From NCBI RefSeq assembly GCF_010730575.1, contig NZ_AP022614.1, positions 5,456,001 to 5,520,000 of the forward strand: 64,000 bases of DNA. The letters run 5' to 3'. The DNA comes from Mycobacterium parmense (GTDB lineage Bacteria > Actinomycetota > Actinomycetes > Mycobacteriales > Mycobacteriaceae). The translations under genes and the position numbers were made by a program. Below, piece by piece: positions 40,694 to 60,050 of the stretch. How positions within the stretch are numbered: the stretch's first letter is position 1; each line of letters begins with the position of its first letter. The notes under the pieces were generated by a model. It was not told the origin of the DNA, did not search any database, and saw only the letters and a list, made by a program, of their open reading frames with translations.

Positions 40694-43065
40694 ACGCCGG
40701 CCTGAGCGACGCCGAGGTCGCGCAGCGGGTCGCCGACGGCAAGACCAACGCGGTCGCCGGGCGTGCCACGCGCAGCGTGGCCGACATCGTGCGGGCCAAC
40801 GTGTTCACGCGCATCAATGCCATCCTCGGGGTGCTGCTGCTGATCGTGCTGGCGACGGGCTCGCTGATCAACGGGCTGTTCGGCCTGCTCATCGTCGCCA
40901 ACAGCGTCATCGGCATGGTCCAGGAGATCCGTGCCAAGCAGACGCTGGACAAGCTGGCGATCGTCGGGCAGGCACGGCCTCTGGTGCGCAGGCGATCCGG
41001 AACCCGAGCGTTGGCGCCGGACGAGGTGGTGCTCGACGACATCATCGAGCTGGGCCCCGGCGACCAGATCGTCGTCGACGGCGAAGTGGCCGAAGAGGCG
41101 AGCCTGGAAATCGACGAGTCGCTGTTGACCGGCGAGGCCGACCCCATCGGCAAGCGGGTCGGCGACGCGGTGATGTCGGGCAGCTTCGTCGTCGCCGGAA
41201 GTGGCGCCTACCGGGCCACCAGGGTCGGGCGAGATGCCTACGCCGCCAAGCTCGCCGACGAGGCCAGCAAGTTCACCCTGGTGAAGTCCGAGCTGCGCAA
41301 CGGCATCGACAGGATCCTGAAGTTCATCACCTACCTGTTGGTCCCGGCCGGCCTGCTGACCATCTACACCCAGTTGTTCACCACGCACGCCGGATGGCGG
41401 CAATCCGTGCTGCGGACCGTCGGCGCGCTGGTCCCGATGGTGCCGGAAGGCCTGGTGCTGCTGACGTCGGTCGCGTTCGCGGTCGGGGTGGTCAGGCTGG
41501 GCCAGCGCCGGTGCCTGGTGCAGGAGCTGCCCGCCATCGAGGGGTTGGCGCGGGTCGACGTGGTCTGCGCCGACAAGACGGGCACCCTGACCGAGACCGG
41601 CATGCGGGTCGCTCGCGTCGAGGCGCTCGGCCCGGATGCACTGGGGGACAACGTTGCCGATGTGCTGGCCGCACTGGCCGCCGCCGACCCGCGGCCCAAC
41701 GCCAGCATGCGGGCCATCGCTGAGGCCTATCGCGAGCCGCCGGCCTGGACCGCCACCGCGACCGCGCCGTTCAAGTCGGCCACCAAATGGAGTGGCGTGT
41801 CCTTCGGCGACCACGGGGACTGGGTGATCGGGGCCCCCGACGTGCTGCTCGATCCCCGTTCGGCCGCCGCCGAACAAGCCGAACGACTCGGGGGGCTCGG
41901 GTTGCGGGTGCTGCTGGTGGGCGCCGCCGACACGACCGTCGACGCGCCGGGCGCACCGGGCAATGTCACGCCCACCGCGTTGGTGCTGCTCGAGCAGAAG
42001 GTGCGGCCGGATGCGCGTGAAACAATCGAGTTCTTCGCCGCACAAGGAGTTTCGGTCAAGGTTTTGTCCGGCGACAACGCAGTCTCGGTCGGTGCGGTCG
42101 CACGCAGGCTCGGGCTGCAGGGTGACACTATGGACGCGCGTGCGCTGCCGCAGGACCCCGCGGGAGTCGCGGAAGCGCTGGACTCCCACACCACCTTCGG
42201 GCGGGTGCGCCCGGACCAGAAGCGTGTCATCGTCAATGCCCTGCAGTCACACGGGCACGCCGTGGCCATGACCGGCGACGGCGTCAACGACGTGCTGGCC
42301 CTCAAGGACGCCGATATCGGCGTGGCGATGGGATCCGGCAGCCCCGCTTCGCGCGCGGTGGCGCAGATCGTGTTGTTGGACAACCGATTCGCCACGCTGC
42401 CCTATGTCGTCGGCGAGGGACGCCGCGTGATAGGCAACGTCGAGCGCGTCGCCAACCTCTTCCTCACCAAGACCGTCTACTCGGTGCTGCTGGCCCTCTT
42501 CGTCGGTATCGAGTGCCTGCTTGCACCGTCGGTTCACGCGGACCCGCTGCTGTACCCGTTCCAACCCATCCACGTCACCATCGCGGCGTGGTTCACCATC
42601 GGGATCCCGTCGTTCATTCTGTCGCTGGCACCCAACAACGAACGCGCGCACCCGGGGTTCGTGCGGCGGGTGCTCAGCGTCGCCCTGCCCTGCGGGCTGG
42701 TCGTCGGGCTCGCGACTTTCGTCTCCTACCTGCTGGCCTATCACGGCCGCCATGCCACTTTCGCGCAGCAGGAGCAGGCGTCGACGGCGGCGCTCATCAC
42801 GTTGCTGACGACGGCGCTGTGGGTGCTCGCGGTGGTGGCGCGCCCCTACCAGTGGTGGCGCGTCGCGCTGATCGCGGCGTCGGGGCTGGCCTACGTGGTG
42901 ATCTTTAACGTGCCGCTGGCTCGTCGGGAGTTCCTGCTGGATCCGTCGGACGCGGCGGTGACCGCGACGGCGCTGGGCACCGGGGTGGCGGGGGCCGCGT
43001 TGATCGAGCTCATGTGGTGGGTTCGCGCCCGGATGCTGGGGGTAGAGCCGCGGTTGTGGCGCTGA
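40690..43065 (+). CDS. ctpE: P-type cation ATPase CtpE
   Basis: A 791-residue P-type ATPase. Actuator domain: [14 protein letters not shown]. Phosphorylation motif DKTGT with Asp295. TM4 ion site: [14 protein letters not shown] domain: KSATKWSGV. Hinge: [22 protein letters not shown]. About 10 TM segments in all ([37 protein letters not shown] and others). In M. smegmatis CtpE is a calcium importer needed for cell-wall integrity. It overlaps the upstream beta-lactamase-like gene by four bases, so both are co-translated. Confidence 0.95.
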
Positions 43066-43078
43066 TCGCGGGCATTGG

Positions 43079-43098
43079 GCGCCGGGGGGTGCCGGCGC
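43079..43098 (+). terminator. Hairpin after ctpE
   Basis: Stem GCGCCGG/CCGGCGC with a 6-base loop, 13 bp past the ctpE stop and 36 bp ahead of the antitoxin gene. No U-tract. It could end or slow transcription before the toxin–antitoxin pair. Confidence 0.5.
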
Positions 43099-43133
43099 GC
43101 CAAGTAAGATCCTCGCGGGGAAAGGACGGGCTG

Positions 43134-43322
43134 ATGGGATTCTTGGACAAGGCGAAGGACCTGTTGTCGCAGAACGCCGACAAAGTCGAGATGGCGATCG
43201 ATAAGGCCGGCGAGTTCGTCGACGACAAGACGCAGGGCAAGTACTCCGACACCATTCACAAGGTGGCCGACGAGGCCAAGAAGGCTGCGGACTCCGCCGC
43301 CGCGGGCGACCAGAAGAACTGA
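43134..43322 (+). CDS. Antitoxin of the Rv0909/Rv0910 pair (MT0933-like)
   Basis: A 62-residue, charged, helical protein ([44 protein letters not shown]...). It matches the small antitoxin family of Rv0909 (59 residues), which pairs with a START/SRPBCC-fold toxin. The ATG at 43134 has AAAGGACGGG upstream. The toxin gene follows after 4 bp. Confidence 0.82.
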
Positions 43323-43326
43323 GCTC

Positions 43327-43788
43327 ATGGCCAAACTCTCCGGATCGATCGACGTCCCGCTGCCTCCCGAGACCGCGTGGAAGCACGCGTCGGACCTGTC
43401 CCGTTTCAAGGAATGGCTGACCATTCACCGCGTGTGGCGCAGCAAGTTGCCCGACGACATCGACAAGGGCACGGTTGTCGAGTCCATCGTCGAGGTGAAG
43501 GGCATGTACAACCGGATCAAATGGACCGTGGTGCGCTACAAGCCGCCGGAAGGCATGACGCTCAACGGAGAGGGCGTCGGCGGTGTGAAGGTCAAGCTGA
43601 TGGCCAAGATTCAGCCCAAGGAACAGGGGTCGGTCGTCGCGTTCGATGTCCACCTGGGCGGTCCGGCGCTGTTCGGACCGATCGGCATGATCGTCGCCGC
43701 CGCGCTGCGAAGCGACATCGACGCGTCCCTGCAGAACTTCGTCACGGTGTTCACCAGGCCCGATCCGGCCACGAACGGACACCGCTGA
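43327..43788 (+). CDS. SRPBCC-fold toxin (Rv0910 type)
   Basis: A 153-residue START/polyketide-cyclase-like protein: GSIDVPLPPETAWKHASDLSRFKEWLTIHRVWRS at the N terminus, a central KGMYNRIKWTVVRYKPPEGMTLNGEG and the long C-terminal helix GPIGMIVAAALRSDIDASLQNFVTVF. Rv0910 is listed as the toxin of a toxin–antitoxin pair that blocks growth. The hydrophobic pocket of the fold may bind a lipid. Co-transcribed with the small antitoxin gene. Confidence 0.85.
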   Translation: MAKLSGSIDVPLPPETAWKHASDLSRFKEWLTIHRVWRSKLPDDIDKGTVVESIVEVKGMYNRIKWTVVRYKPPEGMTLNGEGVGGVKVKLMAKIQPKEQGSVVAFDVHLGGPALFGPIGMIVAAALRSDIDASLQNFVTVFTRPDPATNGHR

Positions 43789-43821
43789 CCCCCGCCCCGA
43801 CGGCCCACTAATGTCGCTTCC

Positions 43822-44256
43822 ATGACTCGCCGGCTGAGCCCTGGTTGGCTGGTCGCCTTCTGCGCCCTCGTCGTTTCGGCCAGCGCGTGGATGCCCTGGC
43901 TGACCACCGCGGTCGGCGGCGGAGGCTGGGCAAGTGCCATCGGGGGCACCCACGGCAGCCTGCGGTTGCCGCGGGGGTTCGGGGCGGGCCAGCTGATCGT
44001 CTTGTTGTCGGCGGTCCTGCTGGTCCTCGGGGCGATGGTCGGCCGCCGACTGTCAACCAGACTGGCTTCGGTTGCCGCGCTGGTTGTTTCGCTGCTCATC
44101 GTCGCCCTCACCGCGTGGTACTACAAGCTCAACGTCAACCCCCCGGTGTCGGCCGAGTACGGCTTCTACGCCGGCGCGGCCGGGGCGGTGTGCGCGGTCG
44201 CATGCTCGCTGGTGGCGGTGGTCGTGGCACTCGCCTCGGGCCCGTCGCGCCGCTGA
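43822..44256 (+). CDS. Four-helix membrane protein (Rv0912 type)
   Basis: A 144-residue protein with four hydrophobic helices (LVAFCALVVSASAWMPWLTTAV, LIVLLSAVLLVLGAMVG, ASVAALVVSLLIVALTAWYY, AGAVCAVACSLVAVVVALA). It has no known domain. Two-gene neighbourhood with the VOC protein on the other strand, stops 5 bp apart. It is likely the equivalent of Rv0912. Function unknown. Confidence 0.78.
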   Translation: MTRRLSPGWLVAFCALVVSASAWMPWLTTAVGGGGWASAIGGTHGSLRLPRGFGAGQLIVLLSAVLLVLGAMVGRRLSTRLASVAALVVSLLIVALTAWYYKLNVNPPVSAEYGFYAGAAGAVCAVACSLVAVVVALASGPSRR

Positions 44257-44260
44257 GTCG

Positions 44261-44749
44261 TCACCTCGAGGGGAACTGGTGTTTGCCGGATGCCCCATCG
44301 CCTGGTTCGTTCACGCCGAACACGAAGGGCGCGAACACCACCTCGCGTCCGTCGGGGTCGCGATACGTCACCGCTCCGGTCGCCTCCCAGTACGGGTGCT
44401 GCTGAACGGTTTCGGCGCCCGATTCGCGCAGGCGGGCGATAGCCGCCGACATGGCCTGCTCGTCCGGAAAGTACAGGCACAACTGTTCGTGGTGGTCCAC
44501 CGCAACCGGTTCGGCGGACTCGACGATCTCCAGGGTGAGGTTCCAGCTGGGCAGCCCGAAGATCGCACCGCTGCTGCCGAAGCTGGCCTCGAACGTCTCG
44601 TAGAGCGGCAGGCCGACCAGTTCCCGATAGAAACGCACCGTTGCCTCGAAGTTCGACGACCGGCGCGCGAACCAGATGGCGCCGATCGGCGCCAACGGCG
44701 GTGGCCAGTGCGTCGTGCGGCGGCGTGAGCTGTGTTCGTCGGCCGCCAT
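44261..44749 (-). CDS. VOC-family protein (glyoxalase fold)
   Basis: A 162-residue single VOC domain: IGAIWFARRSSNFEATVRFYRELVGLPLYETFEASFGSSGAIFGLPSW, then ARLRESGAETVQQHPYWEATGAVTYRDPDGREVVFAPF. The ATG at 44749 overlaps by one base the stop of the carotenoid oxygenase gene upstream (TGATG); a GTG at 44752 is also possible. It is therefore the third gene of a thiolase–oxygenase–VOC operon. It may act on or protect against products of the oxygenase; this is inference. Confidence 0.85.
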   Translation of the reverse strand: MAADEHSSRRRTTHWPPPLAPIGAIWFARRSSNFEATVRFYRELVGLPLYETFEASFGSSGAIFGLPSWNLTLEIVESAEPVAVDHHEQLCLYFPDEQAMSAAIARLRESGAETVQQHPYWEATGAVTYRDPDGREVVFAPFVFGVNEPGDGASGKHQFPSR

Positions 44750-46281
44750 CACAGCCCGACGGCGCTCGGTGCCGATTCGGCGGTATGCCAGCGCCGCAAC
44801 CGTGCGCCCGGCGCCCACGTCGAATGCGTGCCGCTGGAGATGCGCTCCGGCAGTTGAAGTTTGCACACCGGGCCATCGCAGACCCGGGCGGCGTCGAACA
44901 CCACGCAGTAGGAGGCGTCGGCAGTCATGTCGGTGGTGAGGGTGACCAGGTAGCCGTCGTCCTCGCCGTGGGCGCCGACCCGGGGCGCCATCGCGGTCTC
45001 GCTTCCGTAGACGCCGTCGCCGAAGGCGAAGCTCTGTTCGGTGCCGGTGAGCAGGTCGTGTCTGACCAGTCCGTCGAACAGGAACCAGCCGGGCTTGCCG
45101 GTGGCGGCGTAGGTGTAGCGGTAGCTGCGCGCCGCGTAATCGGGGTTGATGGTGCCGAACTCCGTGATCGACTCCGAGAGCCGCTCCTCGCGGACCGCGC
45201 CGGTCACCAGGTTGAGCCGCCAGCGGTGCAGCCGGGTCTGCAACCGGTCCAGCGCGAGGAAGCGAAAGAGCTTGTCCCACTTCTCCCCGAGGGGCCCCAC
45301 CGTTCCGCCATTGTCCAGCGGAGAGGGATCGCCTTCGAAGAAGCCGTCGAGCACGATCTCGTCCCCGTCCTCGTAGGCGTTGACGAAGTGCAGCACGAAC
45401 GTCGGGTCGGCCTCGAACCACCGGATGTCGTCGGTCCCGCCCCGGCGGGGGAGCACCGCGAAGCGCGACGGGATGTCCGGATAGAACCGGGGCAGGTGGA
45501 CGCCGTGCTCGAGGAGTCCCGGATCCCAGAACAGCGGGAAATCGTTGAGGACGACGTAGTTTTCGGTGAATGCCATATCGTGCGGCAGCCGCGGGCCGGG
45601 CAGCGGGACGTCCACGTAGTGCGCCAGCTCGTTGCCGGCGTCCACCACGCCGTAGCGCATGTACGGGTCCTGCTTGCTGTAGTTGAAGAACAGCAATTCG
45701 CCGGTTCTGTTGTCCACCTTGGGATGTGCGGACACCCCCCAGTCGGCGGGGAAGCGTCCGTTCCAGGTTTCCTTACCGAGCGTATCGGCCGAGTACGGGT
45801 CGATGCGGTACAGGTCGCCGCATTGGTAGAAGCTGGTCAATGCGACGCCCCGGTGCACGATCACGTCGGTGCTCGAGGCGTCCTTCATCAGGGTGCGAGC
45901 GCCCCAGCCGTTCTCGCGTCGGGCCAGTTGCACCGGCTCGGCCAGGCCCGGCCACAGGGGTACCCCCGCCTCGTTTTCCGCCAGGAAGCCGTCCGTGCGA
46001 ATGAACCGATTGCGGTAGAAGGCTTTTCCGTCACGGAAGCCGACCACGTGGAGCATGCCGTCGCCGTCGAACGGGTGGTAGGTCTTCAACGCCGGGTGCA
46101 GCGGATTCTCGGTGTTGCGAAGGTATACGCCGTCGAGGTCGCGCGGGATCTCGCCCTCCACGGGGGCCAGATCCCCGGCGTCCCACTCGGTGGTCTGCGG
46201 CCGCCACGGCCCGGTGCGGTACGGGTGGTCGTCGTCCTCGGGCAGGGTGGACAGGAACTTGCCGACGATCTCCACGTCCAT
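44749..46281 (-). CDS. Carotenoid/stilbene cleavage oxygenase (Rv0913c type)
   Basis: A 510-residue non-haem iron dioxygenase of the RPE65/apocarotenoid family with a seven-bladed propeller. The four iron-binding His can be placed in VSAHPKVD, LPHDMAFTENY, FVLHFVNAYED and SSGTHSTWAP; the family start GVYLRNTENPLHPALKTYHPFDGDGMLH is clear. The ATG at 46281 is preferred because GAGG lies 9 bp upstream; a GTG at 46287 overlapping the thiolase stop is an alternative. Substrate is unknown; carotenoid or lignostilbene-like compounds are typical of the family. Confidence 0.9.
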   Translation of the reverse strand: MDVEIVGKFLSTLPEDDDHPYRTGPWRPQTTEWDAGDLAPVEGEIPRDLDGVYLRNTENPLHPALKTYHPFDGDGMLHVVGFRDGKAFYRNRFIRTDGFLAENEAGVPLWPGLAEPVQLARRENGWGARTLMKDASSTDVIVHRGVALTSFYQCGDLYRIDPYSADTLGKETWNGRFPADWGVSAHPKVDNRTGELLFFNYSKQDPYMRYGVVDAGNELAHYVDVPLPGPRLPHDMAFTENYVVLNDFPLFWDPGLLEHGVHLPRFYPDIPSRFAVLPRRGGTDDIRWFEADPTFVLHFVNAYEDGDEIVLDGFFEGDPSPLDNGGTVGPLGEKWDKLFRFLALDRLQTRLHRWRLNLVTGAVREERLSESITEFGTINPDYAARSYRYTYAATGKPGWFLFDGLVRHDLLTGTEQSFAFGDGVYGSETAMAPRVGAHGEDDGYLVTLTTDMTADASYCVVFDAARVCDGPVCKLQLPERISSGTHSTWAPGARLRRWHTAESAPSAVGL

Positions 46282-46283
46282 GG

Positions 46284-47519
46284 TCACCAACCTCGGGTTG
46301 TGCGCACGATGAAACTCACGGTGGTGGCGGTGCTGCCGCCGAAGTTGAGCGTGCCGAAGGCGGTCGCGCCGTCAACCTGATAGTCGCCGGCCGCCCCACT
46401 GACCTGTTTGGCCGCGTCGAGCAGCATGCGCACGCCGGACGCTCCGACCGGGTGGCCGCCGCCGATCAGTCCGCCGCTGGGGTTGATCGGCAGTCGGCCG
46501 CCGATCTCGATCTCGCCGTTTTCGATCGCCTTCCACGACTCACCCGGTCCGGTCAGGCCGATGTGGTCGATGGCGAGGTACTCGCTGGGGGTGAAGCAAT
46601 CGTGCACCTCGAAGCCGTCGACGTCGTCGAGCGTGAGCTCGGCGCGGCGCAACGCGTCCAGCACCGCGGCGCGTACGTGCGGAAGGACGTACGGCTGGTC
46701 GGCGGCGCGGCGCAGTTTCTGCTGCAGGCCAAGCCCCACGGTGCGGTGTCCCCAGCCGTCGATGCGCGCGATCGGGCGGGTGCCGGGGTGGTCTCGCAGA
46801 AAAGCGTCGTTGACCAGGACGAGTCCGGCGCCACCGTCGGTCATCTGGCTGCAGTCGAAGCGCCGCAGCCGCCCCTCCGTGACCGGGTTGGTGCCGTCGT
46901 CGTCGGTGATCGGGTCCGGAACGCTCCACCGGCGGGTCTGGGCATTGGGGTTGCGCCGGGCGTTGGCGAAGTTGAGCTGCGCGATGGCCCGCAGGTGCGT
47001 GTCGTCCAGGCCGTAGCGCCGGTCGTACTCCCCGGCGACCTCGTCGAACATCGACGGCCACAGGTAGCGCGCGCCCGTCCCCTCATGACCCGTCCATGCC
47101 GCCGCGCCGAGGTGTCCGGCGGCGGTGTCACCGGGCACCGTCTTCTCCAGCTCGATCCCGATGACCAGCGCGCTGTCGTAGGCGCCCGACCGCAGATCGG
47201 CGGCCGCCGACAGCACCGCCACGCCCCCGGAGGCGCACGCCGCTTCGTGCCGGGTGGCGGGGGTGTCCCAGAGGCCGTCACACACCGTCGCCGGCATCGC
47301 GCCGAGGTGCCCTTGGCCGGCGAACAGCTCGCCGAAGGCGTTCGCCACATGGACGACTCCGATGCCGTCGGCCGTCAGGCTGGCCGCGGCGAGCGTGTGC
47401 TCGACGATCTCCGCGGTCAGCGCAGCGAAGTCCAGACCCTCTTTGGTGACGTTGCGCGCGAAGTCGCTTTGGTAGCCGCCGAGGATCCATACGCCTGTCG
47501 AGCCGTCCACATGCGGCAC
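46284..47519 (-). CDS. Thiolase/acetyl-CoA acetyltransferase (Rv0914c type)
   Basis: A 411-residue SCP2-type thiolase with intact catalytic residues: Cys in EAACASGGVAVL, VHDCFTPSEY and GGGHPVGASGV. GTG start at 47519 (VPHVDGSTGVWILGGYQSDF) with AGGAG before it gives the M. tuberculosis length. It probably makes or cleaves a beta-ketoacyl-CoA, possibly of a sterol or branched chain. First gene of the operon with the carotenoid oxygenase and the VOC protein. Compare with the thiolase-like gene at 1374, where these residues are changed. Confidence 0.9.
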   Translation of the reverse strand: MPHVDGSTGVWILGGYQSDFARNVTKEGLDFAALTAEIVEHTLAAASLTADGIGVVHVANAFGELFAGQGHLGAMPATVCDGLWDTPATRHEAACASGGVAVLSAAADLRSGAYDSALVIGIELEKTVPGDTAAGHLGAAAWTGHEGTGARYLWPSMFDEVAGEYDRRYGLDDTHLRAIAQLNFANARRNPNAQTRRWSVPDPITDDDGTNPVTEGRLRRFDCSQMTDGGAGLVLVNDAFLRDHPGTRPIARIDGWGHRTVGLGLQQKLRRAADQPYVLPHVRAAVLDALRRAELTLDDVDGFEVHDCFTPSEYLAIDHIGLTGPGESWKAIENGEIEIGGRLPINPSGGLIGGGHPVGASGVRMLLDAAKQVSGAAGDYQVDGATAFGTLNFGGSTATTVSFIVRTTRGW

Positions 47520-47970
47520 GGTACTCCTGAGCGAACACCTCGCCCAGGGGATCCGGAAGCTGGTTGTCACGTTTGCTGACCCCGAATGAGGGCGGCCCCG
47601 TCGGCTCTCGGGCTGAACCGACGGGACCTAGGCGAGCACGCAGGCCGGCCCACATGCGCGCCTCTCATGCATCATTGCCCTCAGCAGCGGCGCACAAACA
47701 TGCTCGCGCAACGTCGCAACCGACCTCACCGGTCGGTGCTGACCTGGCGACACAAGATTTGCCCAGCTCAGGGCGCGCTCAGCCGCAACGGCGCCCTGGG
47801 CGGGCACGCCTCGATCCGTGCGGGCCGCGGGCAGAACCACTGCGTTGCGACCCGGTCTCGGATGGATACCTTTTCGCAGATCACTGGTCACACGTGACCC
47901 GTGGATCACTATCGTCACATGAGCTAGCTGCGAATCTCAGGTTGCGACGGCCTGTCTCGAAAGGTGTTAC
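47520..47970. other. 451-bp divergent promoter region of the thiolase and DUF4185 genes
   Basis: No gene is seen; short open frames here lack coding features. It holds a CCCGTCGG/CCGACGGG inverted repeat (47597-47625) and the operator-like repeat at 47886. AAAGGTG precedes the ATG of the DUF4185 gene at 47971. This marks the point where gene order stops following M. tuberculosis. Confidence 0.6.
47886..47899. promoter_or_regulatory. Inverted repeat GGTCAC-N2-GTGACC upstream of the DUF4185 gene
   Basis: 6-bp arms around two bases, 72 bp before the start codon, flanked by two direct copies of GATCACT. This is a plausible operator for a dimeric regulator. Confidence 0.4.
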
Positions 47971-49470
47971 ATGTCGGCGATTCTTCGAAGTGTGTCGCTC
48001 TCGATGGCATCGGCGGCCGCTGTCGGGCTCGTCCTTGCGATCGGGCCGGCACCGACGGCGAACGCCACCCCGTGCGGGGCACCCGAAGCGAACGTGGACC
48101 CTCCGGCGGTGACGCCCGCCATTCCCGCACCTCAGCCGGTCGTCCAACCGCCCACCGGGCGCAGGCCCACTCACACCAACGACTCGGCGCCGCTGCCCAA
48201 GCTCGGCCCGCTGATCTCGTCCTTCCTCAAGCCCACCCCGGGGCAGCGCTACGCCGCCCCGATCCAGCCCCAGGCCGGGGTGGCACCGCCCAACCCCAAT
48301 CCGCCCGCCCCGGGGTTGCCCCAACAGCCGAACGCCACCCAAATGCAGCCCAACGCGGCGCCGGTGCATCCCCAGCCGGCGCCGAAGCCGGCGCCGGACG
48401 CCGCACCCGCGCCTCCCGTCTCGATCGCGGGCGCCCCGACGTCGCTGGTCGACTGGGTGACCGGACCGAACGGCCCGAACAGGACCCTGCAGCGTTTCGG
48501 CATCTCGGGGACCGACCTCGGGATCGTCTGGGACAACGGCGATCCGAGTAACCACCAAGCGCTGATGGCCTTCGGTGACACGTTCGGCTACTGCAAGGTC
48601 CACGGCCAGGAATGGCGTTACAACGTCTTGTTCCGCAGTTCGGACCACGACCTGTCGCACGGCATCCACATCGCCGACGGCGTGCCCAACAACCCCTACT
48701 CCGGGTCACCGGTGTGGTCGAACGGCCTGTCCAAGCAGGTCGTCAACACCATCCACAAGGCGACGCACGAGACGGGCATCATCCCGACGGCGGCGATGTC
48801 CCTCGGCAGAACCCAGTACATGAGCTACATGTCGATCCGGCAGTGGGGTCGGGACGGCGAATGGTCGACCAACTACTCGGCGATCGCCCGGTCCAACGAC
48901 AACGGCCAGAACTGGGGGATCTTTCCCACCAGCATCCGCACGGCTTCGCCCGATGCCATCCCGGGTGCCGGCTTCACGCCCGGAAACGAGAATTTCCAGA
49001 TGGGCGCGTTCATGAAGGGCAACGACGGCTACATCTACCAGTTCGGGACCCCGTCGGGGCGCGGTGGCGCGGCTTTCCTGTCACGGGTTCAGCCGGGCCA
49101 GTTGCCCGACGTCACGAAGTATCAATACTGGAACGGCGACGGAGAGGGGCGCTGGGTCCCGAGCAATCCGGGGGCGGCCACGCCGATCTTCCCCGGCCCC
49201 GTGGGCGAGATGTCGGCGCAGTACAACGACTACCTCAAGCAGTACCTGGTGCTCTACACCAACGGTGGCAGCAACGACGTCGTCGCAAGGACCGCGCCGA
49301 GCCCGCAGGGGCCGTGGAGCCCGGAACAGCCGCTGGTGTCGTCGTTCTCGATGCCGGGCGGGATCTACGCGCCGATGATCCACCCGTGGTCGTCGGGGCG
49401 GGATCTGTACTTCAACTTGTCGCTGTGGTCGGCATACGACGTGATGCTGATGCATACCGAGCTCCCCTAG
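47971..49470 (+). CDS. Secreted DUF4185 protein, candidate endo-D-arabinanase (GH183-like)
   Basis: A 499-residue exported protein: signal peptide (SMASAAAVGLVLAIGPAPTANA) then a 100-residue Pro-rich linker and a beta-propeller domain of the DUF4185 type (ISGTDLGIVWDNGD, MAFGDTFGYCKVHGQEWRYNVLFRSSDHDLSHGI, MSYMSIRQWGRDGEWSTNYSAIARSNDNGQNW, and a late GGIYAPMIHPW). DUF4185 proteins, including a mycobacterial one, have been assigned to glycoside hydrolase family GH183, endo-D-arabinofuranases acting on cell-wall arabinan. Whether this copy is active is inference; acidic residues in IVWDNGD and FGDTF are candidates. It lies 236 bp before the megasynthase, on the same strand. Confidence 0.8.
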   Translation: MSAILRSVSLSMASAAAVGLVLAIGPAPTANATPCGAPEANVDPPAVTPAIPAPQPVVQPPTGRRPTHTNDSAPLPKLGPLISSFLKPTPGQRYAAPIQPQAGVAPPNPNPPAPGLPQQPNATQMQPNAAPVHPQPAPKPAPDAAPAPPVSIAGAPTSLVDWVTGPNGPNRTLQRFGISGTDLGIVWDNGDPSNHQALMAFGDTFGYCKVHGQEWRYNVLFRSSDHDLSHGIHIADGVPNNPYSGSPVWSNGLSKQVVNTIHKATHETGIIPTAAMSLGRTQYMSYMSIRQWGRDGEWSTNYSAIARSNDNGQNWGIFPTSIRTASPDAIPGAGFTPGNENFQMGAFMKGNDGYIYQFGTPSGRGGAAFLSRVQPGQLPDVTKYQYWNGDGEGRWVPSNPGAATPIFPGPVGEMSAQYNDYLKQYLVLYTNGGSNDVVARTAPSPQGPWSPEQPLVSSFSMPGGIYAPMIHPWSSGRDLYFNLSLWSAYDVMLMHTELP

Positions 49471-49706
49471 GCCGCCGGGTCGGCCCCGGCGGGCGTGTCG
49501 TTTCGGCTCGCACGTCTCCGGCGTCGCGGTAAACGGCGCGATCGCCATTGCGCACGAACGGCATTCGCGGCGCGGGCCGACGGCCGCGACGGCCGTCCGC
49601 GACTCCCGGCGCTGCCGACCGCGAGCAAAGCGCCGGCCGGCGGCAGATTGGCCTGAGCTGCCGGTTCCGCCGACGCCCGGAGTGTTCATGGGTATCGTCA
49701 AGCGCT

Positions 49707-52700
49707 GTGTTCGAGTCTTCGATTCCCGCCGTGTTGCGGGAGCGCGCCAGCCTGCAGCCCAGCGAGGTGGCGTTCACCTACGTCGATTACGAACACGACT
49801 GGGCGGGCGTCGCCGAGACGCTGACCTGGTCGCAGCTGTATCGGCGCACGTCGAACCTGGCGCGGGAGCTCGAAGCCCTCGGGTCGACGGGTGACCGCGC
49901 CGTCATCCTGGCGCCGCAAGGACTCGAGTACGTCGTCGCGTTTCTCGGCGCACTGCAGGCCGGCCAGATTGCGGTGCCGCTGTCGATGCCACTCGGCGGC
50001 GCCAGCGACGAGCGGGTCAGCGCCGTCCTGAACGACGCGTCGCCCTCGTCCATCCTGACGACATCACCCGTGGCCGGCGACATTGCCGGGTACATCAAGG
50101 CCGGGCCGGGAGCTGCCGCGCCATCGGTCATCGAGGTCGACCTGCTGGACCTGGACTCCGACCACGCGGCCCCCGCCGAGGGCTACGGGACCACCGACAT
50201 TGCGCACCTGCAGTACACCTCGGGGTCCACCCGCACGCCCGCGGGAGTCATGGTGTCCCACCGCAACATTCAGGTCAATTGCGAGCAGATCATGGCCGCC
50301 TACTACCCGGACGCGGTCGCTCCGCAGGACACCACCGTGGTGTCGTGGCTGCCGCTCTTTCACGACATGGGCTTGATCTTCGGCATCGCCTTCCCGGTGC
50401 TGGGGGGTTTTCGCACCGTACTGACCAGCCCGCCGGCCTTCCTGCAGCGACCGGCGCGGTGGATACAGATGCTGGCCGGCAACCCGCACACGTTCTCGGC
50501 GGGACCGAATGTCGCTTTCGAGTTGGCGGCGCGCAAGACGTCGGACGACGACATGGCGGGGCTCGACCTCGGGGGGGTGCGCAACATCCTCAACGGTGCC
50601 GAGCGCGTGAACCCCCCCACCCTGCGGCGCTTCGCCGAGCGGTTCGCCCGCTTCAACCTGCGTCCCGAGGTACTGAGGGCGTCCTACGGGCTCGCAGAAG
50701 CGACGTTGTACGTGGCGACCCTGGACACCGGCAAACCACCGCTCACCGTCGCCTTCGAGCCCGAGAAACTGACCGCCGGACAGGCGGTCCGGTCCGCGAC
50801 CGCGGACGGCCCGCCGCTGGTCAGCTACGGCATGCCGCAGTCGCCCACGGTGCGCATCGTCGACCCCGAGACCGGCGTCGAGTGCCCGACGGGGACGGTC
50901 GGGGAGATTTGGGTGCACGGCGACAACGTCTGCGCCGGCTATTGGCAAAGGCCTGACGACACCCAACGCACCTTCGGCGCAACGCTTGTCGGCGCGTCGG
51001 GCGACGCGCCGGAGGCGCCCTGGCTGCGGACCGGAGACCTGGGCTTCTTCTCCGAGTGTGAGATGTTCATCGTCGGCCGCATCAAGGACCTCCTGATCGT
51101 CTACGGGCGCAACCACGCGCCCGACGACATCGAGGCGACAATCCAGGAAATCACCGCGGGCCGGGTCGTGGCGATCGCGGTTCCCGACGACGAGGGCGTC
51201 GAACAGCTGGTCACCATCGTCGAACTCAAGCCGGTTGGCGACTCCGAAGAGGCGGTGGGGCAGAAGCTGACCGCGGCCAGGCGGGAGATCACCGCGGCGA
51301 TATCGAGGTCGCACGGCCTGAGCGTGTCGGATCTCGTTCTGGTGCCGCCTCATTCGATACCGCTCACTACGAGCGGCAAGGTCAGGCGCCGAGATTGCTT
51401 GCAGCGGTACCTGCACGGGGAGTTCACCCGCCTGGACGCGCTGGCCCGGCCGCCCAAGCGGCGCACGGCAACTGATGTCACCGACGCCGCTGCGGGCGGC
51501 GCGGGTCTGGCCCAGCGCCTGCGCACGCTGCAGCAGCAGCAACACGACCTGCTGCTCGAGACGGTGTGCTCGCAGGCGGCAACGGTACTGGGCCACGACG
51601 CCGACGAGATCGACCCCGAGTCCGCGTTCCGCGAACTAGGGTTCGACTCGGTGAAAGCCACCGAGCTGCTCGACAGGCTCAAAACGATCACCGAGTTGGC
51701 ACTCTCGCCGACCCTGGCCTTCGACCACCCCACGCCGGTCGCGCTGGCCACCCACCTGAGTCAGCTGCTGAGCGGATCGGTCGCGGCGGCTCCGCCGGCG
51801 GAGGCGCGGGTGGCGTCCGACGAGCCGGTGGCCGTCGTGGGGATGGCGTGCCGCTTTCCCGGGGGGGTCGATTCGGCTGCGGCGCTGTGGGATCTCGTGT
51901 CGGGTGGCGTCGACGCGGTCGGCGCATTCCCCGCCGACCGCGGCTGGGACCTGGCGAATCTGTTCGATCCCGATCCCGACGCCGTCGGCAAGACCTACAC
52001 CCGCGCCGGGGGGTTCCTGGCGGAGGCGGCCGAGTTCGACGCCGACTTCTTCGGGATCTCCGCGCGGGAGGCCCAGACGATGGATCCCCAGCAACGGTTG
52101 CTGCTGGAGGTGTGCTGGGAAGCGTTGGAAACAGCCCGCATCGATCCGGCCGCATTGGCCCGCTCGGAGACAGGGGTGTTCGTCGGCGCCTGGTCGCAGT
52201 CCTACGGCGGCGGCGGTTCCGACGGTGTCGAGGGGTACGCCCTGACCGGTCTGTCCACCAGCGTGGCCTCGGGGCGTGTCGCCTACGCGCTGGGTTTGCA
52301 GGGCCCCGCCATCACCGTGGACACCGCATGCTCGTCGTCGTTGGTGGCCACGCACCTGGCATGTCAGTCGCTGCGCAACGGCGAGTCGGTTCTCGCCCTG
52401 GCCGGCGGTGTGACGGTGATGACCACACCGTCGGTGTTCACCGAGTTCGCCCGGCAACGCGGGCTGGCCGCCGACGGTCGCTGTAAAGCCTTCTCCGCCA
52501 ACGCCGATGGCACCGGCTGGGGTGAAGGCGCCGCGGTGCTGGTGCTGGAGCGGCTCAGCGACGCGCAGCGCAACAACCACCCCGTGCTCGCGGTCATCGC
52601 GGGGTCGGCGATCAACCAGGACGGCGCCTCCAACGGTCTGACCGCCCCCAACGGGCCCGCCCAGCAACGCGTCATCGCCCAGGCCGTGGCCAACGCCGGC

Positions 52701-55700
52701 ATCGCATTCGACCAGGTCGACGTCGTCGAGGCGCACGGCACCGGCACCACTCTGGGCGACCCGATCGAAGCCGGCGCCCTGATCGCCACCTATGGGGCCG
52801 CGCGCACCGCCGAGCAGCCCCTATGGCTGGGATCGATCAAATCCAACATCGGTCACACCCAGGCCGCCGCCGGCGCCGCCGGGATCATCAAAATGGTTGC
52901 GGCGCTTGGGCACGACAGCCTGCCCCCCACGCTGAACGTCGACCGGCCCAGCCCGCACATCGACTGGTCGACCGGCACCGTTCGCCTGCTCACCGAGGCG
53001 GTGCCCTGGCCGGCCACCGAGCATCCGCGCACCGCCGCGGTGTCGTCGTTCGGGATCAGCGGCACCAACGCGCACCTGATCCTGCGGCAGCCGCCCACCC
53101 CGCCGCCGGACGCCACCCCGCCGGCGGCGGCCGATGTCGGGCCGCGGATGTGGCCGGTGTCGGCGTTCACCCCCGCGGCGCTGGCGGCGCAGGCCGACCG
53201 ACTGCACCGCCACCTGGTCAGCCACCCCGACCTCGACCTCACCGACGTGGCCTACAGCCTGGGCGCCACCCGCACGCATCACTCCCATCGCGCAGTGATC
53301 ACCGCATCGGCGGCCACCGCCGATCAACGCGAAGAACTGCTGGACGCCCTCGATGCGCTGCGCGCCGGCCGGCCGCACCCGCAGCTGACCCGACACCACC
53401 ATCTCGCCCACCTGCGCGGCAAAACGGTGTTCGTCCTGCCCGGGCAGGGCGGCCAGCATCCCGGCATGGGCACCGAGCTCTACGAACACCACCCGGCCTT
53501 CGCCGACATGGTCGACCGCTGCGACCAGGCGTTGCGCCCCTTCACCGGCTGGTCGGTGCGCGACGTGCTGTGCGCAGCCGAGGGGGCCCCGCCGCTGGAT
53601 CGAGTCGACGTCGTCCAGCCGGCGCTGTTCACGATGATGGTGTCACTCGCAGAGGTGCTGGGCCGCAACGGCATTGTCCCCGACGCGGTGATCGGCCACT
53701 CGCAGGGAGAGATCGCCGCGGCCTACATCGCCGGGGCGCTTTCGCTGCCCGAGGCCGCCAAGGTGGTGGCACTGCGCAGTCAGGCGTTGAGCTCGCTGCG
53801 CGGCGCCGGCGGCATGGCGTCGGTCCTGCTGAGCGCCGACGAACTGCGCCCCCGCCTGCAACCGTGGGGTGAGGCGTTGAGCATCTCGGCGATCAACGGG
53901 CCGACGCACACCATCGTCAGCGGCCGGCCGGCCGCACTGGACGAGTTCATCGCGGCGTGCGAACGTGACGGCGTCCACGTCCGGGCCATCGCGGTCGATT
54001 ACGCCTCGCATTCGGCCCAGGTCGAGCCCCTGCGGGAGAAGCTGCTGGCCGAGCTTGCCGACCTGACTCCGGCGCCTGCCCGCATCCCGCTGTATTCCAC
54101 GGTGGGAGAAGCGCTTTCGGCCGGGCCCCTCGACGCCACCACCATGGACGCCGACTACTGGTACCGCAACCTGCGCGAGCCGGTCCGGTTCCACGACCGC
54201 GTCACCGAAGTCTTGGCGGCCGGGGAGCGCATCTTCGTGGAACTGGCCCCGCACCCGGTGCTGGCCCCGGGCATCACCGACACCCTGGCCCAGGCCGCGG
54301 GACGGATCCAGTCCGCGGTGATCCCCACCTTGCACCGGGACCGGCCCGACCGCGACGGCCTGGCCATCGCGCTGGCCGAGCTGCACAACCACGGCCACAG
54401 CCCGTCGTGGCCGGCCCTTTATCCCCACGCCCGCACCGTCGCGCTGCCCACCTATCCCTTCGAGCACCGCCGCTACTGGCTGGCCCCCGCGCCGGCCGGC
54501 GACGCCACCGGACTCGGCCTGGACCCCGCCGAACATCCCCTGCTGGGGGCGGTGGCCGCGCTGGCGGACCAGGACCAGGTCATGGCCAGCGGGCGGCTGT
54601 CGGCGAGCACCCAGGCCTGGCTTGCCGGCCATCGGGTCAACGACACCGTCGTGTTCCCGGCGACCGGGTTCATCGAGGTGATCCTGCGGGCCGGTGAGCT
54701 GACCGGTTGCCCGGCGATCAGCGAACTCGTCCTGCACACGGCCCTGGTCCTGCCGGAACAGGTGCCGGCCGACCTGCAGGTGCTGGTGCAACCGTCCGAC
54801 GAGCACGGCCGGCGCCCGTTCAGTGTGCACTCGCGCCCCGCCGGCCAGCACGGCGCCGAGTGGACGTTGCATGCCAGCGGCGAGCTCGGCGCCCACCAGG
54901 CCGCCGCCCGACCCGCGCCCGCGCCGGTGCCGGATGTGCAGGCCGTGGACCAGGAAGACTTCTACGACCTGCTGGCCAAGAAGGGGTACCACTACAGCGG
55001 TCTATTCCGGTCCCTGCGCGGTGTCGGCACCGACCCCGCCCGTCCCGAGGCGGTCTACGCCGAGGTCGCGTTGCCCGCCGGCGCGGACGTCGCGGGCTAC
55101 GGAATCCACCCCGCCCTGCTCGACGCCGCCCTGCACCCGCTGGCGTCCGTGCTGGACCCGGCCGGGGACACCGAAACGCTCCGGCTCCCGTACACGTTCA
55201 GCGGGGTCGCCCTGTACGCCACGGCGGCCACCAAGCTGCACGTTCACTTGACCCGCACCGGCGAGGACACCTACGCGCTGCACGCGGCCGACCCCACCGG
55301 CGCCCCGGTGATCACCATCGACGCGTTGACCCTGCGCGCGGTCTCGGACCAGATCGGCCGGCCGGTCCCCGCGGCGTCCCAGAGCCTGTTCGAGCTGACC
55401 TGGCCGCCCATGCCGGAGCAGCCCGGCCCGTCGGCGAGCCGGCCCCAGGCGTGGGCGGTATGCGCCGAGTCGCCCGAGGACCTGCCGGCCGGCCTCGCCG
55501 GCGGCACCATTTACGCCGAGCTGGCCACCCTGGCCCCCTGTCCGGACGTGGTGATCTGGTCGCTGCCCCGGCCCGAAAGCGCTGTCGCGGAAGAGGATCC
55601 GGTGCGACGAGCGCACGGCCTCACCCGGCGCGTGCTGGCCGGGCTGCAGAGCTGGCTGGCCCGGCCCGACACGGCCGACGCCCGCCTGCTGATCGTCACG

Positions 55701-58700
55701 CGCGGCGCCGTCAGCGTCAGCCCCTACGACTGCGTCCCCGATCTGGCGCACGCCGCGGCCTGGGCGCTGCTCCACACCGCCCAGAACGAGCATCCCGACC
55801 GGATCACTCTGGTCGACACCGATGCCTTCGCCACCGCCGACCACCTGCTCGCCATCGCCGCCGCGGGGGCGGCCGGCGAGCCCGAAATGGCCCTGCGCAA
55901 CGGCGTCGTGCACCTGCCCCGCCTGGCCCGCGCCCCGATCCTGACGCCGCCGGAATCCTCCGCGTGGCAGCTGGGCAGCACCGGGGGAGGCGACCTGGCC
56001 CACCTGGGCCTGCTGCCCACCGAACCCCCGAACACGCTGTCCGCCGGGCAGATTCGCGTCCAGGTGCGGGCCGCCGGACTGAACTTCCGCGATGTGGTCG
56101 TCGCGCTCGGCGCCATCTCCGATGAGGGGATGGGCAGCGAAGCCGCCGGGGTCGTTCTCGACGTCGGCCCCGGCGAGACGAGGCTGCGTCGCGGCGACGC
56201 GGTGATGGGCCTCTTCCCGCACAACGCGTTCGCGCCGACCGCGATCACCGATGAGCGCATGGTGGTGCCCCTGCCCGCCGGGTGGACGTTCACCCAGGCC
56301 GCGTCCGTGCCGATCGCCTACCTGACCGCCTACATCGCTCTGGTCGAGATCGCGGGGCTGTCGGCCGGGCAGCGCGTGCTCGTCCACGCCGGTGCCGGGG
56401 GCGTGGGTCAGGCCGCCATCGCGATCGCCCGCCACCTCGGCGCGGAGGTCTTCGCCACCGCACACCCCACCAAGCATCGCGTGCTCGAAGGCCTGGGGGT
56501 CGATCCAGCGCACATCGCCTCTTCGCGCACACTGCAATTCGCCGACACGTTTCGCGACGCCACCAACGGGCAGGGGATGGACGTCGTACTCAACAGCCTC
56601 AGCGGGGAATTCGTCGACGCGTCGTTGCGACTGCTGCCCCGCGGCGGCAGCTTCGTCGAGATCGGCAAGACCGACATCCGCCGGGCCGGTGACATCGCGG
56701 CCGCCCACCCCGGAGTCGACTACCAGGCCTACGACCTGGCCAGCGCGCCGGCCGAATCGCTGCGGCCGGCCTGGGCCGCCCTGACGCCCCTGTTCGACGC
56801 CGGGGTCCTCGAGCCGCTGCCGACCACCAGCTATGGACTACTGGACGCCACCCAGGCATTCCGTGACATGAGCCAGGCCCGCCACACCGGGAAGATCGTC
56901 CTCATCCCACCCGCGGTGCTCGATCCCGACGGCACGGTGTTGATCACCGGCGGCACCGGCATGCTGGGCACGATCTTCGCCGAATATCTCGTCACCCACC
57001 ACGGCGTCGAGCACCTGCTGCTGTTGTCGCGCACGGGGCCCGGCGCCGCTGGGGCCGTCGAACTGCGTGAACGTCTGGCCCGCCTGGGCGCCCACGTCGA
57101 GATCGAAGCCTGCGACACCAGCGACCCGGCCGCGCTCGCGTCGGCACTCGACACGATCCCCGACGACCACCCGCTGACCGCCGTGCTCCACGCCACCGGC
57201 GTCCTGGATGACGCCGTGGTGACCGATTTGAGCCCCGGACAACTCGACGCCGTCCTGGCCGCCAAAGCCGACGCCGCCTGGCATCTGCACCGGCTCACCG
57301 CCGACCGCGACCTGGCCGCGTTCGTCCTGTTCTCCTCGGCGGCCGCAACGTTGGGCAGCCCGGGGCAGGCCAACTACGCCGCCGCCAACGCGTTCCTCGA
57401 CGCGCTGGCACGCCTGCGCCATCGCGCCCAGCTCCCGGCCACGAGCATCGCCTGGGGTTACTGGCAAACCCCCACCGGGATGACCGCGCACCTCAACACT
57501 GCCGACCTGACCCGCCTGACCAGCACGGGCCTGACCCCCATCGCCAGCGAGCACGGTCTGGCCCTGTTCGACGCGGCGCTCGGCAGTCAGCGGCCTGACC
57601 TGCTGGCCAGCCCGGTCAATATCGGCGCGCTGACCCGCCGCGCGCGCACCAACACGCTGGACCCGATCCTGTCCGCCCTGGTCACCAGCCGCCGTCAGGC
57701 CGCCACCGGCAGTCCCCGGACCCTGGCCGCGACCTTGGCCACCCAAACGCCGCACCAGCGGCTGGACACCCTGACGGCGATGGTCACCGCCACCACCGCC
57801 GCCGTGCTGGCCCATCCCGACCCGGCCGCGCTCGACGCCGATCGTCCTTTCAAAGACCTCGGCATCGACTCACTGACGGCCCTGGAACTGCGCAACACTC
57901 TCAACCAGCACACCGGACTGGTCCTGCCGGCGACCCTGGCATTCGACCACCCCAGCCCCACCGAGCTGGCCGCGTACCTGGCCGGCCTGCTGACCGAAGC
58001 CGGCACGCCCGGGGCCCCGCCGACCGCGGCCGGCGCGCGCGCCGAGCGGGCGGTGGACAACCGGCTCGCCTACCTGGACCAAGCGGCTTTCCTCGCGCTG
58101 CGCGCGGTTCACGGCGCCCTGATCCAGGTCACCTGGATCTATGACCGCGCCGTCGACATGGACGGACTGCGGCGATTCCACCGCAACCTGGGCGGCGGGT
58201 TGCTGGGACGCAGGATCGAACGGTCGCCGTTGCCGTTCGCGCGTGACCGCTGGGTCACGGCGCCGGCGTCGGAGGACATCGCCGTCGCCCCGGCGCCGCG
58301 GCGGCGCGACGAGGTGACCGCGTGGGCGGACGAGCGCGCTCGGCTGCCGATCGACCCGGAGTGGGGCCCTGGCTGGCATCTCGGGGTGCTCCCGCTTCAG
58401 GACGGCGGGACCGCGGTCAGTTTGGTGGCTTCGCACACGATCGTCGACGCGATCGCCCTCGGGCAGGCGATTGCCGACGCCGCCGAGGGCAGGACGCGCG
58501 ACCTCGGATACCCACCCGCGGGATCGCGCACCCGAAAGTCGGCGCTGCGCGAGGACTTGCGGCAGACGCTCAAGGAGATGCCCGACATCGCGCGGGCGAT
58601 GGGTGCCGTGGTGCGGCGGGCCCGTCGCGACCGCGCCGAGCTCCGGTCGTCGATTACCGCGGCGCCCTCCTCACCGCGGACGACCCGCGCCGACGAGGTC

Positions 58701-59390
58701 GTGCAGGTGCCCGCCTTGACCGCGTCCATCGACCTGGCGGAGTGGGACGCGCGCGCCAAGAGCCTTGGCGCGAGCAGCAATTCGCTGGTCGCGGGGGTGG
58801 CGTCGCGGCTCGCGGTACGGCTCGGACGGGTCGGTGACGACGGCACGGTGACGCTGCGATTCATGGTCACACTGCGCACCGAAGGCGATACCCGCGGCAA
58901 CGCGCTCACGAGCATCGACATCCCCGTCGACCCGACGCACGCCACGACGGACCTCAGCGAGACGCACGTCAAGATCACCCAGGCGACCCTCGCGGCGATG
59001 GAGAACCCCGACGACGAGTTCCTCGCCCCGCTGCCCTTGGCCCCGCTCACGCCCGTGCGGGTGGCCAGACGGCTGGCGGGGATGGCAGCCGGCGGCAGCA
59101 CCCTGCCGGTCACCTGCTCCAATGTCGGTGACCTGTCCCCGTCGGCGAACCGTCCCGACGGCACCGATGCCGACTACGCGTACCTGAGATTGATCGAGCC
59201 GGACGCCAAGAGGAGCACGATCGAGGCGATGGGTGGCCAGCTGTTCCTGGGTTCGGGCCGCGGCCGGGGGAAGATGTCCATCAGAATCTCCGCGTACCTG
59301 CTCGACAGGCCGAACACCGTAGCGGACCTGCGCGACGCCGTGTCGCGGACCTTTGCCGAATTCGACCTGGTTGCCGATATCGACGGCTGA
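49707..59390 (+). CDS. FAAL–ACP–KS–AT–DH–ER–KR–ACP–acyltransferase megasynthase (single polypeptide)
   Basis: 3,227 residues in one frame, GTG start at 49707. Residues 1-580 are a fatty acyl-AMP ligase close to FadD26/FadD28 ([16 protein letters not shown] near 169; [26 protein letters not shown]). ACP1 has GFDS with Ser648. KS: Cys875 (DTACSSS), His1010, His1050. AT: GHSQG with Ser1332 and YASH at 1432-1435, the pattern for methylmalonyl-CoA. DH: His1642 in [10 protein letters not shown], Asp1806. ER: NADPH loop GAGGVGQ near 2229. KR: GGTGMLG from 2415, LDD (B-type), Tyr2557. ACP2: Ser2722 in GIDS. The last ~440 residues are a condensation/WS-DGAT-like acyltransferase with SHTIVDA (His2910, Asp2914). 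There is no thioesterase or transmembrane part. Product inferred: methyl-branched acyl chain transferred to an unknown acceptor. Confidence 0.93.
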
Positions 59391-59405: not shown

Positions 59406-60050
59406 ATGACCGTCCTGCCGCAGAACGCGAGGCGACGGTTCGTCAGGGGTGCCGTCGCGGCGTGGACCGTCGCGGGGCTGAGCTATCTGGTGCTCGAAGC
59501 CGTTGCGGCCGCGGCCTTCCCGGTGCATTACAGCTATTCCCACAACCTCGTCAGCGACCTCGGTGCCGCCCCAGGGGCGTGTCTGATCAACGCGGCGTTC
59601 TGTGTGCAGGGCACGTTGTTCCTCGCGGGTGCCGTGCTCGTCGTCCGGGGGCTGGCGGCCCGCGGCTCAACGGTTTTCGCGGCTTTCGCCGCCGCTGACG
59701 CCGTCGGCAACTATCTCGTCGCCGCGTTTCACAGCGCCCCTGCGGGGCAGACAGGCCAGACCGCCTGGCTGCATCAGACCGGTGCGTTGCTCGCGATAGT
59801 GGGCGGCAACCTGGCCGTGTTGTCCGGCTCTTCGGTCCTCGGCTGCGTCTGCGGGCGGTGCTACCGCGGCGTGTCCGTCGGTCTCGCTTCGCTCGGCTTG
59901 CTGGCCTTCGTGGTGTTCGCGACCGGATTGAAAACCGGCGCGGCGTGCGTTGTGCCGCTTGCGGTTTGGGAACGGTCGAGCATCTACTCGATCATCGGCT
60001 GGCAGGTGCTCACCGCCGGCTGCCTTGTTGTGCGGGATCGCCGCACATGA
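59406..60050 (+). CDS. DUF998-type membrane protein
   Basis: A 214-residue protein with about six hydrophobic helices (AAWTVAGLSYLVLEAVAAAAF, NAAFCVQGTLFLAGAVLVVRGL, VFAAFAAADAVGNYLVAAF, GALLAIVGGNLAVLSGSSVLGCVCG, VGLASLGLLAFVVFATGL, SIIGWQVLTAGCLVV). The sequence YSYSHNLVSDLGA is a hallmark of the DUF998 family. It begins 15 bp after the megasynthase stop, so it is co-transcribed and a role in moving or accepting the lipid product is possible. This is inference only. Confidence 0.85.
   Translation: MTVLPQNARRRFVRGAVAAWTVAGLSYLVLEAVAAAAFPVHYSYSHNLVSDLGAAPGACLINAAFCVQGTLFLAGAVLVVRGLAARGSTVFAAFAAADAVGNYLVAAFHSAPAGQTGQTAWLHQTGALLAIVGGNLAVLSGSSVLGCVCGRCYRGVSVGLASLGLLAFVVFATGLKTGAACVVPLAVWERSSIYSIIGWQVLTAGCLVVRDRRT

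Follow-up and report, generated by a model that had tools for sequence, protein, structure and literature searches.

The megasynthase gene and its domains

The DNA considered here, hereafter referred to as the window, is a stretch of 64,000 nucleotides from Mycobacterium parmense (contig NZ_AP022614.1, positions 5,456,001 to 5,520,000 of the forward strand). Contained within it is a gene for a megasynthase of 3,227 residues, in which a fatty acyl-AMP ligase (FAAL), a fully reducing polyketide synthase (PKS) module, and a predicted condensation-fold acyltransferase are joined in one polypeptide. The 9.7-kb uninterrupted reading frame described in an earlier note is indeed a single frame on the + strand, extending from a GTG start at position 49707 to a stop at 59390. 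The same frame is open upstream from a TTG codon at 49548. A start at 49707 agrees with the number of residues preceding an early conserved column in 56 of 86 aligned relatives.

According to a Pfam scan, the domain order is FAAL, acyl carrier protein (ACP), ketosynthase (KS), acyltransferase (AT), dehydratase (DH), enoylreductase (ER), ketoreductase (KR), and a second ACP, followed by a C-terminal domain (CTD) that lies outside Pfam. All of the domains are encoded on the + strand. The FAAL domain, delineated by residues 1 to 578 (window 49707-51440), contains an AMP-binding Pfam match at residues 11 to 413 and passes the curated NCBIfam model for fatty-acid--AMP ligases, PRK05850, with 939.7 bits against a cut-off of 775. 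Its scores on the narrower FadD21 and FadD28 models, 886.5 and 862.5, fall below their cut-off of 1,100. ACP1 (residues 619-684, 51561-51758) is the better of two PP-binding stretches matching PF00550, and its serine is found in 86 of 86 relatives, as are the cysteine and the two histidines of the KS (706-1078, 51822-52940, PF00109/PF02801). The AT (1241-1563, 53427-54395, PF00698) carries the motifs GHSQG and YASH, which are also common to the Lsd14 and EryA2-Lsd14 chains. Such a GHSQG motif together with YASH or YAAH marks an AT of the methylmalonyl type, and GHSIG with HAFH marks one of the malonyl type. The DH (1610-1883, 54534-55355, PF21089/PF14765), the ER (2113-2399, 56043-56903, PF08240/PF00107/PF13602), and the KR (2409-2587, 56931-57467, PF08659) follow in that order. 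ACP2, the second PF00550 stretch, lies at about residues 2690 to 2785 (57774-58061) with limits set by hand, and its serine, Ser 2722, is present in 84 of 84 sequences.

The chain passes the type I PKS model NF045894 (1,766 bits, cut-off 1,740), with KS, AT, DH, ER, KR, and ACP all present. All of the catalytic motifs checked were found. The FAAL, the two ACPs, and the full reducing module of the earlier note are thus confirmed by Pfam domains, curated models, and catalytic residues.

The C-terminal domain

The CTD comprises 426 residues (2802-3227, window 58110-59387) and contains an HxxxD motif at positions 2910 to 2914. No Pfam family matches it above cut-off, nor does any of the 25 NCBIfam families listed; there is also no match to PDB sequences at E ≤ 1 and none to PF00668 (Condensation) up to E 10. 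Two PapA genes that adjoin CTD-family genes do match PF00668, with 54.9 and 76.8 bits (cut-off 30.6). Membership of the PapA family by sequence was ruled out by this failure on PF00668, and the likeness to PapA was retained at the level of the fold. The domain likewise has no match to WS_DGAT_cat, the Pfam family of wax ester synthases/diacylglycerol acyltransferases, on which three free-standing CTD relatives score 14.6 to 20.0, below the cut-off of 23.6.

The predicted structure, with a mean pLDDT (predicted local distance difference test) of 86.5, displays a condensation-type fold that carries the HxxxD motif, as in PapA-type enzymes, and it matches condensation, BAHD, and PapA5 folds. The motif is invariant in 44 of 44 aligned members of the CTD family. 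Among the long relatives with a letter at the site, the histidine is conserved in 67 of 68 and the aspartate in 68 of 69. The distance from the ACP2 serine to the CTD histidine is nearly fixed, 182 to 190 residues in 67 proteins. Since no sequence family was matched, assignment as an acyltransferase rests on the predicted structure and on HxxxD. The name "condensation-type acyltransferase" given in the earlier note was therefore not borne out by searches of Pfam, NCBIfam, and the PDB but does agree with the fold and the motif. We infer from the model that the CTD is a condensation-fold acyltransferase belonging to a sequence family apart from PapA. That family gave 2,742 matches among 7,994 scored candidates, and the best 120 are mostly named "hypothetical protein."

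Natural variants of the architecture

The variants were surveyed in 121 long proteins, namely the window protein (P0001) and the best 120 of 2,499 hits, with its database copy (P0122) counted as well. Forty of these, both copies included, share the architecture of the window protein. Others ending in a CTD have KR only (13), no reducing domain (7), DH and KR (4), or DH only (1), and two proteins contain two full modules before the CTD. Thirty show adenylation-type matches only, each with one or more FAAL hits and two with an ACP as well; these are mostly nonribosomal peptide synthetases (NRPSs) of other bacteria. The M. ostraviense protein P0133 ends without a CTD. Nine bases past its end, at locus L018, is a one-module frame that does end in a CTD and that opens with a short segment judged by eye to be helical, and the two constitute a two-protein line. 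A Mycolicibacterium locus (L041, 1508-11278) retains the order of the megasynthase, but the place of the FAAL is taken by a FadD22-like p-hydroxybenzoate--AMP ligase, which scores 872.4 bits on the full-length model and thereby stays under its cut-off of 1,228. Two more loci without a FAAL match, L064 and L076, form a group with L041 in the tree built from CTD sequences. Within the 86 relatives, 79 combine GHSQG with YASH or YAAH in the AT, five have GHSIG with HAFH, and two have other motifs.

As judged from the sequences, this variation in reduction level, in module number, and in split forms fits one extension per module. The family forms a natural combinatorial set, with differences in reduction level, module number, split form, and a swapped starter ligase. 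The precomputed Pfam lists for two related long proteins, P0177 and P0210, include methyltransferase domains.

Gene neighborhoods of the free-standing relatives

Free-standing CTD genes were found at 26 loci, and the following counts refer to the flanking DNA examined. Genes for PapA, glycosyltransferase, MmpL, PKS, or FAAL lie nearby at 22 of the 26: glycosyltransferase at 19, PapA at 15 (of which four reach only 24-36% identity), KS at 12, MmpL at 11, and FAAL at nine. One of these loci is in the genome of M. parmense itself, and its genes are ileS, a Pks2-type PKS (3,953.9 bits on NF041183), a PapA-like gene, Gtf, a Sap-like gene, a second glycosyltransferase identified by eye, MmpL, FAAL, and CTD. 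The last two are back to back with 18 bases between the frame ends (L070, 8053-11246; C1 at about 2.050-2.053 Mb). We take the position near ileS to fit the Pks5/lipooligosaccharide (LOS) locus. MSMEG_4729 and MSMEG_4730 of M. smegmatis may be free-standing CTD relatives, a guess based on gene order. Up to three CTD-family genes occur per locus beside PapA at L043 (7137-11278), L044, L053, and L060, an arrangement suggesting that a single, multiply acylated lipid is served by several acyltransferases. The LOS island of M. smegmatis is reported to be MSMEG_4727-4737 (PMC11139207).

Proposed mechanism and alternatives

The megasynthase is most simply viewed as a self-contained, mostly modular lipid synthase that would add one methylmalonyl unit, reduce it fully, and pass the resulting 2-methyl acyl chain on to an acceptor that offers a hydroxyl, a reading to which we assign a probability of about 0.6. 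As suggested by its family, the FAAL would form a fatty acyl-AMP and load the chain onto ACP1. From the domains, the motifs, and the variation within the family, the KS and AT would then add one methylmalonyl unit, and the KR, DH, and ER would reduce the extension completely. The saturated 2-methyl-branched chain would be held on ACP2, from which the CTD, by means of the HxxxD histidine, may move it to a hydroxyl acceptor, with ester release replacing a thioesterase. This last step is proposed on the basis of the fold, HxxxD, the spacing between ACP2 and the CTD, and the context of the relatives. As acceptor, a sugar or a lipid alcohol belonging to an envelope lipid is most likely, and a glycolipid is plausible. 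The "self-contained machine" for a branched lipid that was put forward in the earlier note is supported in part, by the domains, residues, conserved architecture, and predicted CTD fold, but not by any family match for the CTD.

Several observations weigh against this scheme. In Foldseek, the CTD model attains modest TM-scores, 0.42 to 0.61 by query length. A full FAAL module without a CTD occurs in 13 of the 121 long proteins. None of the five partners accompanies the free-standing CTD at four of the 26 loci (L042, L051, L058, and L066). Finally, the flanks of the fused genes (28 loci; mean total 12.9 kb, a value increased by the long flank of the window) are seldom of the glycolipid type, with Gtf at seven, KS at four, PapA at three, and MmpL at none.

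Methyl-branched acids of mycobacteria are often made iteratively, and the domain order of the module is identical to that of Mas-type enzymes. It is thus conceivable, though rather improbable, that the megasynthase adds several methylmalonyl units in the manner of Mas or Pks5 before the CTD releases a multi-methyl chain. Against such iteration are the two-module and split relatives described above and the similarities of the KS-AT region, which within its own genome is nearest to a two-module PKS of 4,201 codons (58% and 51%, others 40-47%); the 58% stands against 42-47% to the PKS frames of roughly 2,100 codons. We take the 4,201-codon PKS to be Pks12-like. Moreover, the megasynthase does not pass the Pks2-type model NF041183 (1,117.7, cut-off 2,400), on which the LOS-locus PKS of the same genome has the score given above. 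Addition of a single methylmalonyl unit is favored because of the methylmalonyl-type AT motif, the one-extension-like variants of the module, the affinity to a two-module PKS, and the failure on the Pks2-type model.

Somewhat less probable again is attachment of the chain by the CTD to an amine, or some other condensation-fold reaction, which would yield an amide or a different lipid in place of an ester. The best fold matches do include AzeD, which is a dehydratase, as well as the condensation and heterocyclization domains of NRPSs. Transfer to a hydroxyl group is preferred because of the CTD fold, HxxxD, the spacing, and the location of CTD relatives beside PapA, Gtf, MmpL, PKS, and FAAL genes.

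That the frame is an artifact, produced by a frameshift or an assembly join of separate genes, would be in keeping with one broken record (L009, below) but can be dismissed because the same one-frame order is present in other Mycobacterium species, including M. kansasii. A search for the CTD in named genomes gave 64 loci, and in 13 of these a single frame runs from FAAL to CTD with the full domain order of the window (L004, L006, L007, L010, L011, L013, L015, L017, L023, L026, L028, L029, and L038). Among the species represented are M. palustre (L006), M. interjectum (L023), M. alsense (L015, L028), M. bohemicum (L029), and M. terramassiliense. The protein search revealed the same architecture in M. 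kansasii (P0152 and P0153, 3,247 residues), M. persicum, and M. basiliense. In M. interjectum ATCC 51457T (L009) the FAAL and CTD are there and the frame is broken, with 1,420 codons around the CTD. Several further CTD loci are interrupted by contig ends. A probe of 160 residues spanning the junction of ACP2 and the CTD was also searched in 396 genomes of the genus. It aligned from residues 1-4 in at least 54 matches in at least 44 genomes, and at least 48 junction-spanning matches, in no fewer than 41 genomes, belong to frames of 1,000 codons or longer. These independent genomes contradict the join of separate genes allowed for in the earlier note. The wider CTD family is commoner than the fusion, the probe being matched in 314 of the 396 genomes.

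Comparison with known systems

A fusion of FAAL, ACP, and PKS has precedent. One report (PMC11837247) gives the order FAAL-ACP-KS-AT-KR-ACP for the cyanobacterial olefin synthase, in which FAAL, ACP, and a PKS module are likewise fused, and states that FAALs of M. tuberculosis load ACPs of type I PKSs. Whereas the olefin synthase ends in a sulfotransferase and thioesterase and makes terminal olefins, the megasynthase ends in a condensation-fold domain, and no sulfotransferase-thioesterase end was found in its Pfam scan. The Mas/FadD28/PapA5 pathway also brings together a FAAL, a methyl-branching PKS, and a condensation-fold acyltransferase, and PapA5 is among the folds matched by the CTD model. 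The pathway differs in employing three proteins and an iterative PKS, and the CTD of the megasynthase does not fall within the Pfam family to which PapA genes belong. In the enacyloxin PKS (6cgo), judging from the Foldseek hit and the title of the entry, a condensation-fold enzyme frees a polyketide chain. That enzyme is an NRPS-type condensation domain, whereas the CTD is of a distinct sequence family and fused behind ACP2. Both ends of the fusion have their closest relatives in a divergent FAAL and CTD gene pair, which in the genome of M. parmense lies in a locus of the mycobacterial LOS type (Pks2/5-type PKS, PapA, FAAL, Gtf, and MmpL). The proteins there are separate and the PKS is of the Pks2/5 type, in contrast to the fused module, which is nearer to the two-module PKS.

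No description of a mycobacterial FAAL-PKS-acyltransferase fusion was recognized in the open-access literature, mostly at the level of titles, a result that argues only weakly for absence. Nor did a literature search reveal a connection with 2-methyl fatty acids that serve as markers of species. The FAAL-ACP-PKS fusion is thus already known, and its one-chain mycobacterial form with a condensation-fold end appears to be new.

Origin of the two ends

For the trees, 15 extra stretches were added, five of them picked because FAAL and CTD were already known to be close together. A FAAL is also present in 10 of the 14 added stretches with a CTD. There are 11 FAAL/CTD gene pairs (L070 and those of ten further genomes), all divergent; by matched ends, ten are spaced within about 130 bases, and that of L110 is spaced by 2.1 kb. 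Among the 95 sequences of the CTD tree, the 49 fused domains fall in one clade (support 1.0) and the 11 paired domains in another (0.969), the two clades joining at 0.978. The FAAL tree comprises 55 sequences; 31 of its 33 fused domains make up a clade (0.997), which the 11 paired FAALs, grouped with P0200 (1.0), join at 0.933. Two fused domains fall outside that clade: P0200 of M. lacus, from a FAAL module that lacks a CTD, lies among the paired FAALs, and L039 lies elsewhere.

By these trees, both ends of the fusion are evidently akin to the same divergent gene pair. The simplest reading would be that a FAAL and an acyltransferase that were already partnered became joined around a module resembling the 4,201-codon PKS, with later swaps. 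A bolder and quite tentative proposal, which we would not yet favor, is that of a plug-and-play family of mycobacterial synthases with one or two modules. In this proposal a divergent LOS-type FAAL/acyltransferase pair and a Pks12-like module would be the ancestors; starters (a fatty acid or p-hydroxybenzoate), reduction, and module number would be swapped; and a new family of acyltransferases, located at the end of most members, would esterify chains to envelope glycolipids, yielding species-specific methyl-branched lipids. If so, each species would make its own, still unseen, lipid of this kind.

Methyl-branched envelope lipids shape how mycobacteria appear to hosts and phages. The characterized pathways to such lipids use several proteins, and a one-gene version with natural variants would open the rules of chain building to tests on one protein at a time. 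The mechanism proposed here, if true, would also provide a role for a large acyltransferase-like family of mostly "hypothetical proteins," and M. kansasii and its relatives may contain lipids not yet described.

Genes flanking the megasynthase

The flanks of the fused genes vary between species, and no conserved cluster was found, 16 frames neighboring the gene in the window being unmatched beside the fused genes of other species. A search for consensus sigma-70 promoters and terminators found none and was uninformative. In M. asiaticum (L034-L036) a PapA gene lies about 70 bases downstream of the fused gene. In the window, a gene for a DUF4185 protein (47971-49470) is located just upstream of the megasynthase and one for a DUF998 protein (59406-60050) begins 15 bases past its stop; neither was found beside the fused genes of other species. 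Further upstream, positions 39110 to 47570 contain genes for a beta-lactamase-fold protein, a P-type ATPase, a carotenoid-cleaving-dioxygenase-like protein, and a thiolase-like protein, which look like ordinary chromosomal neighbors.
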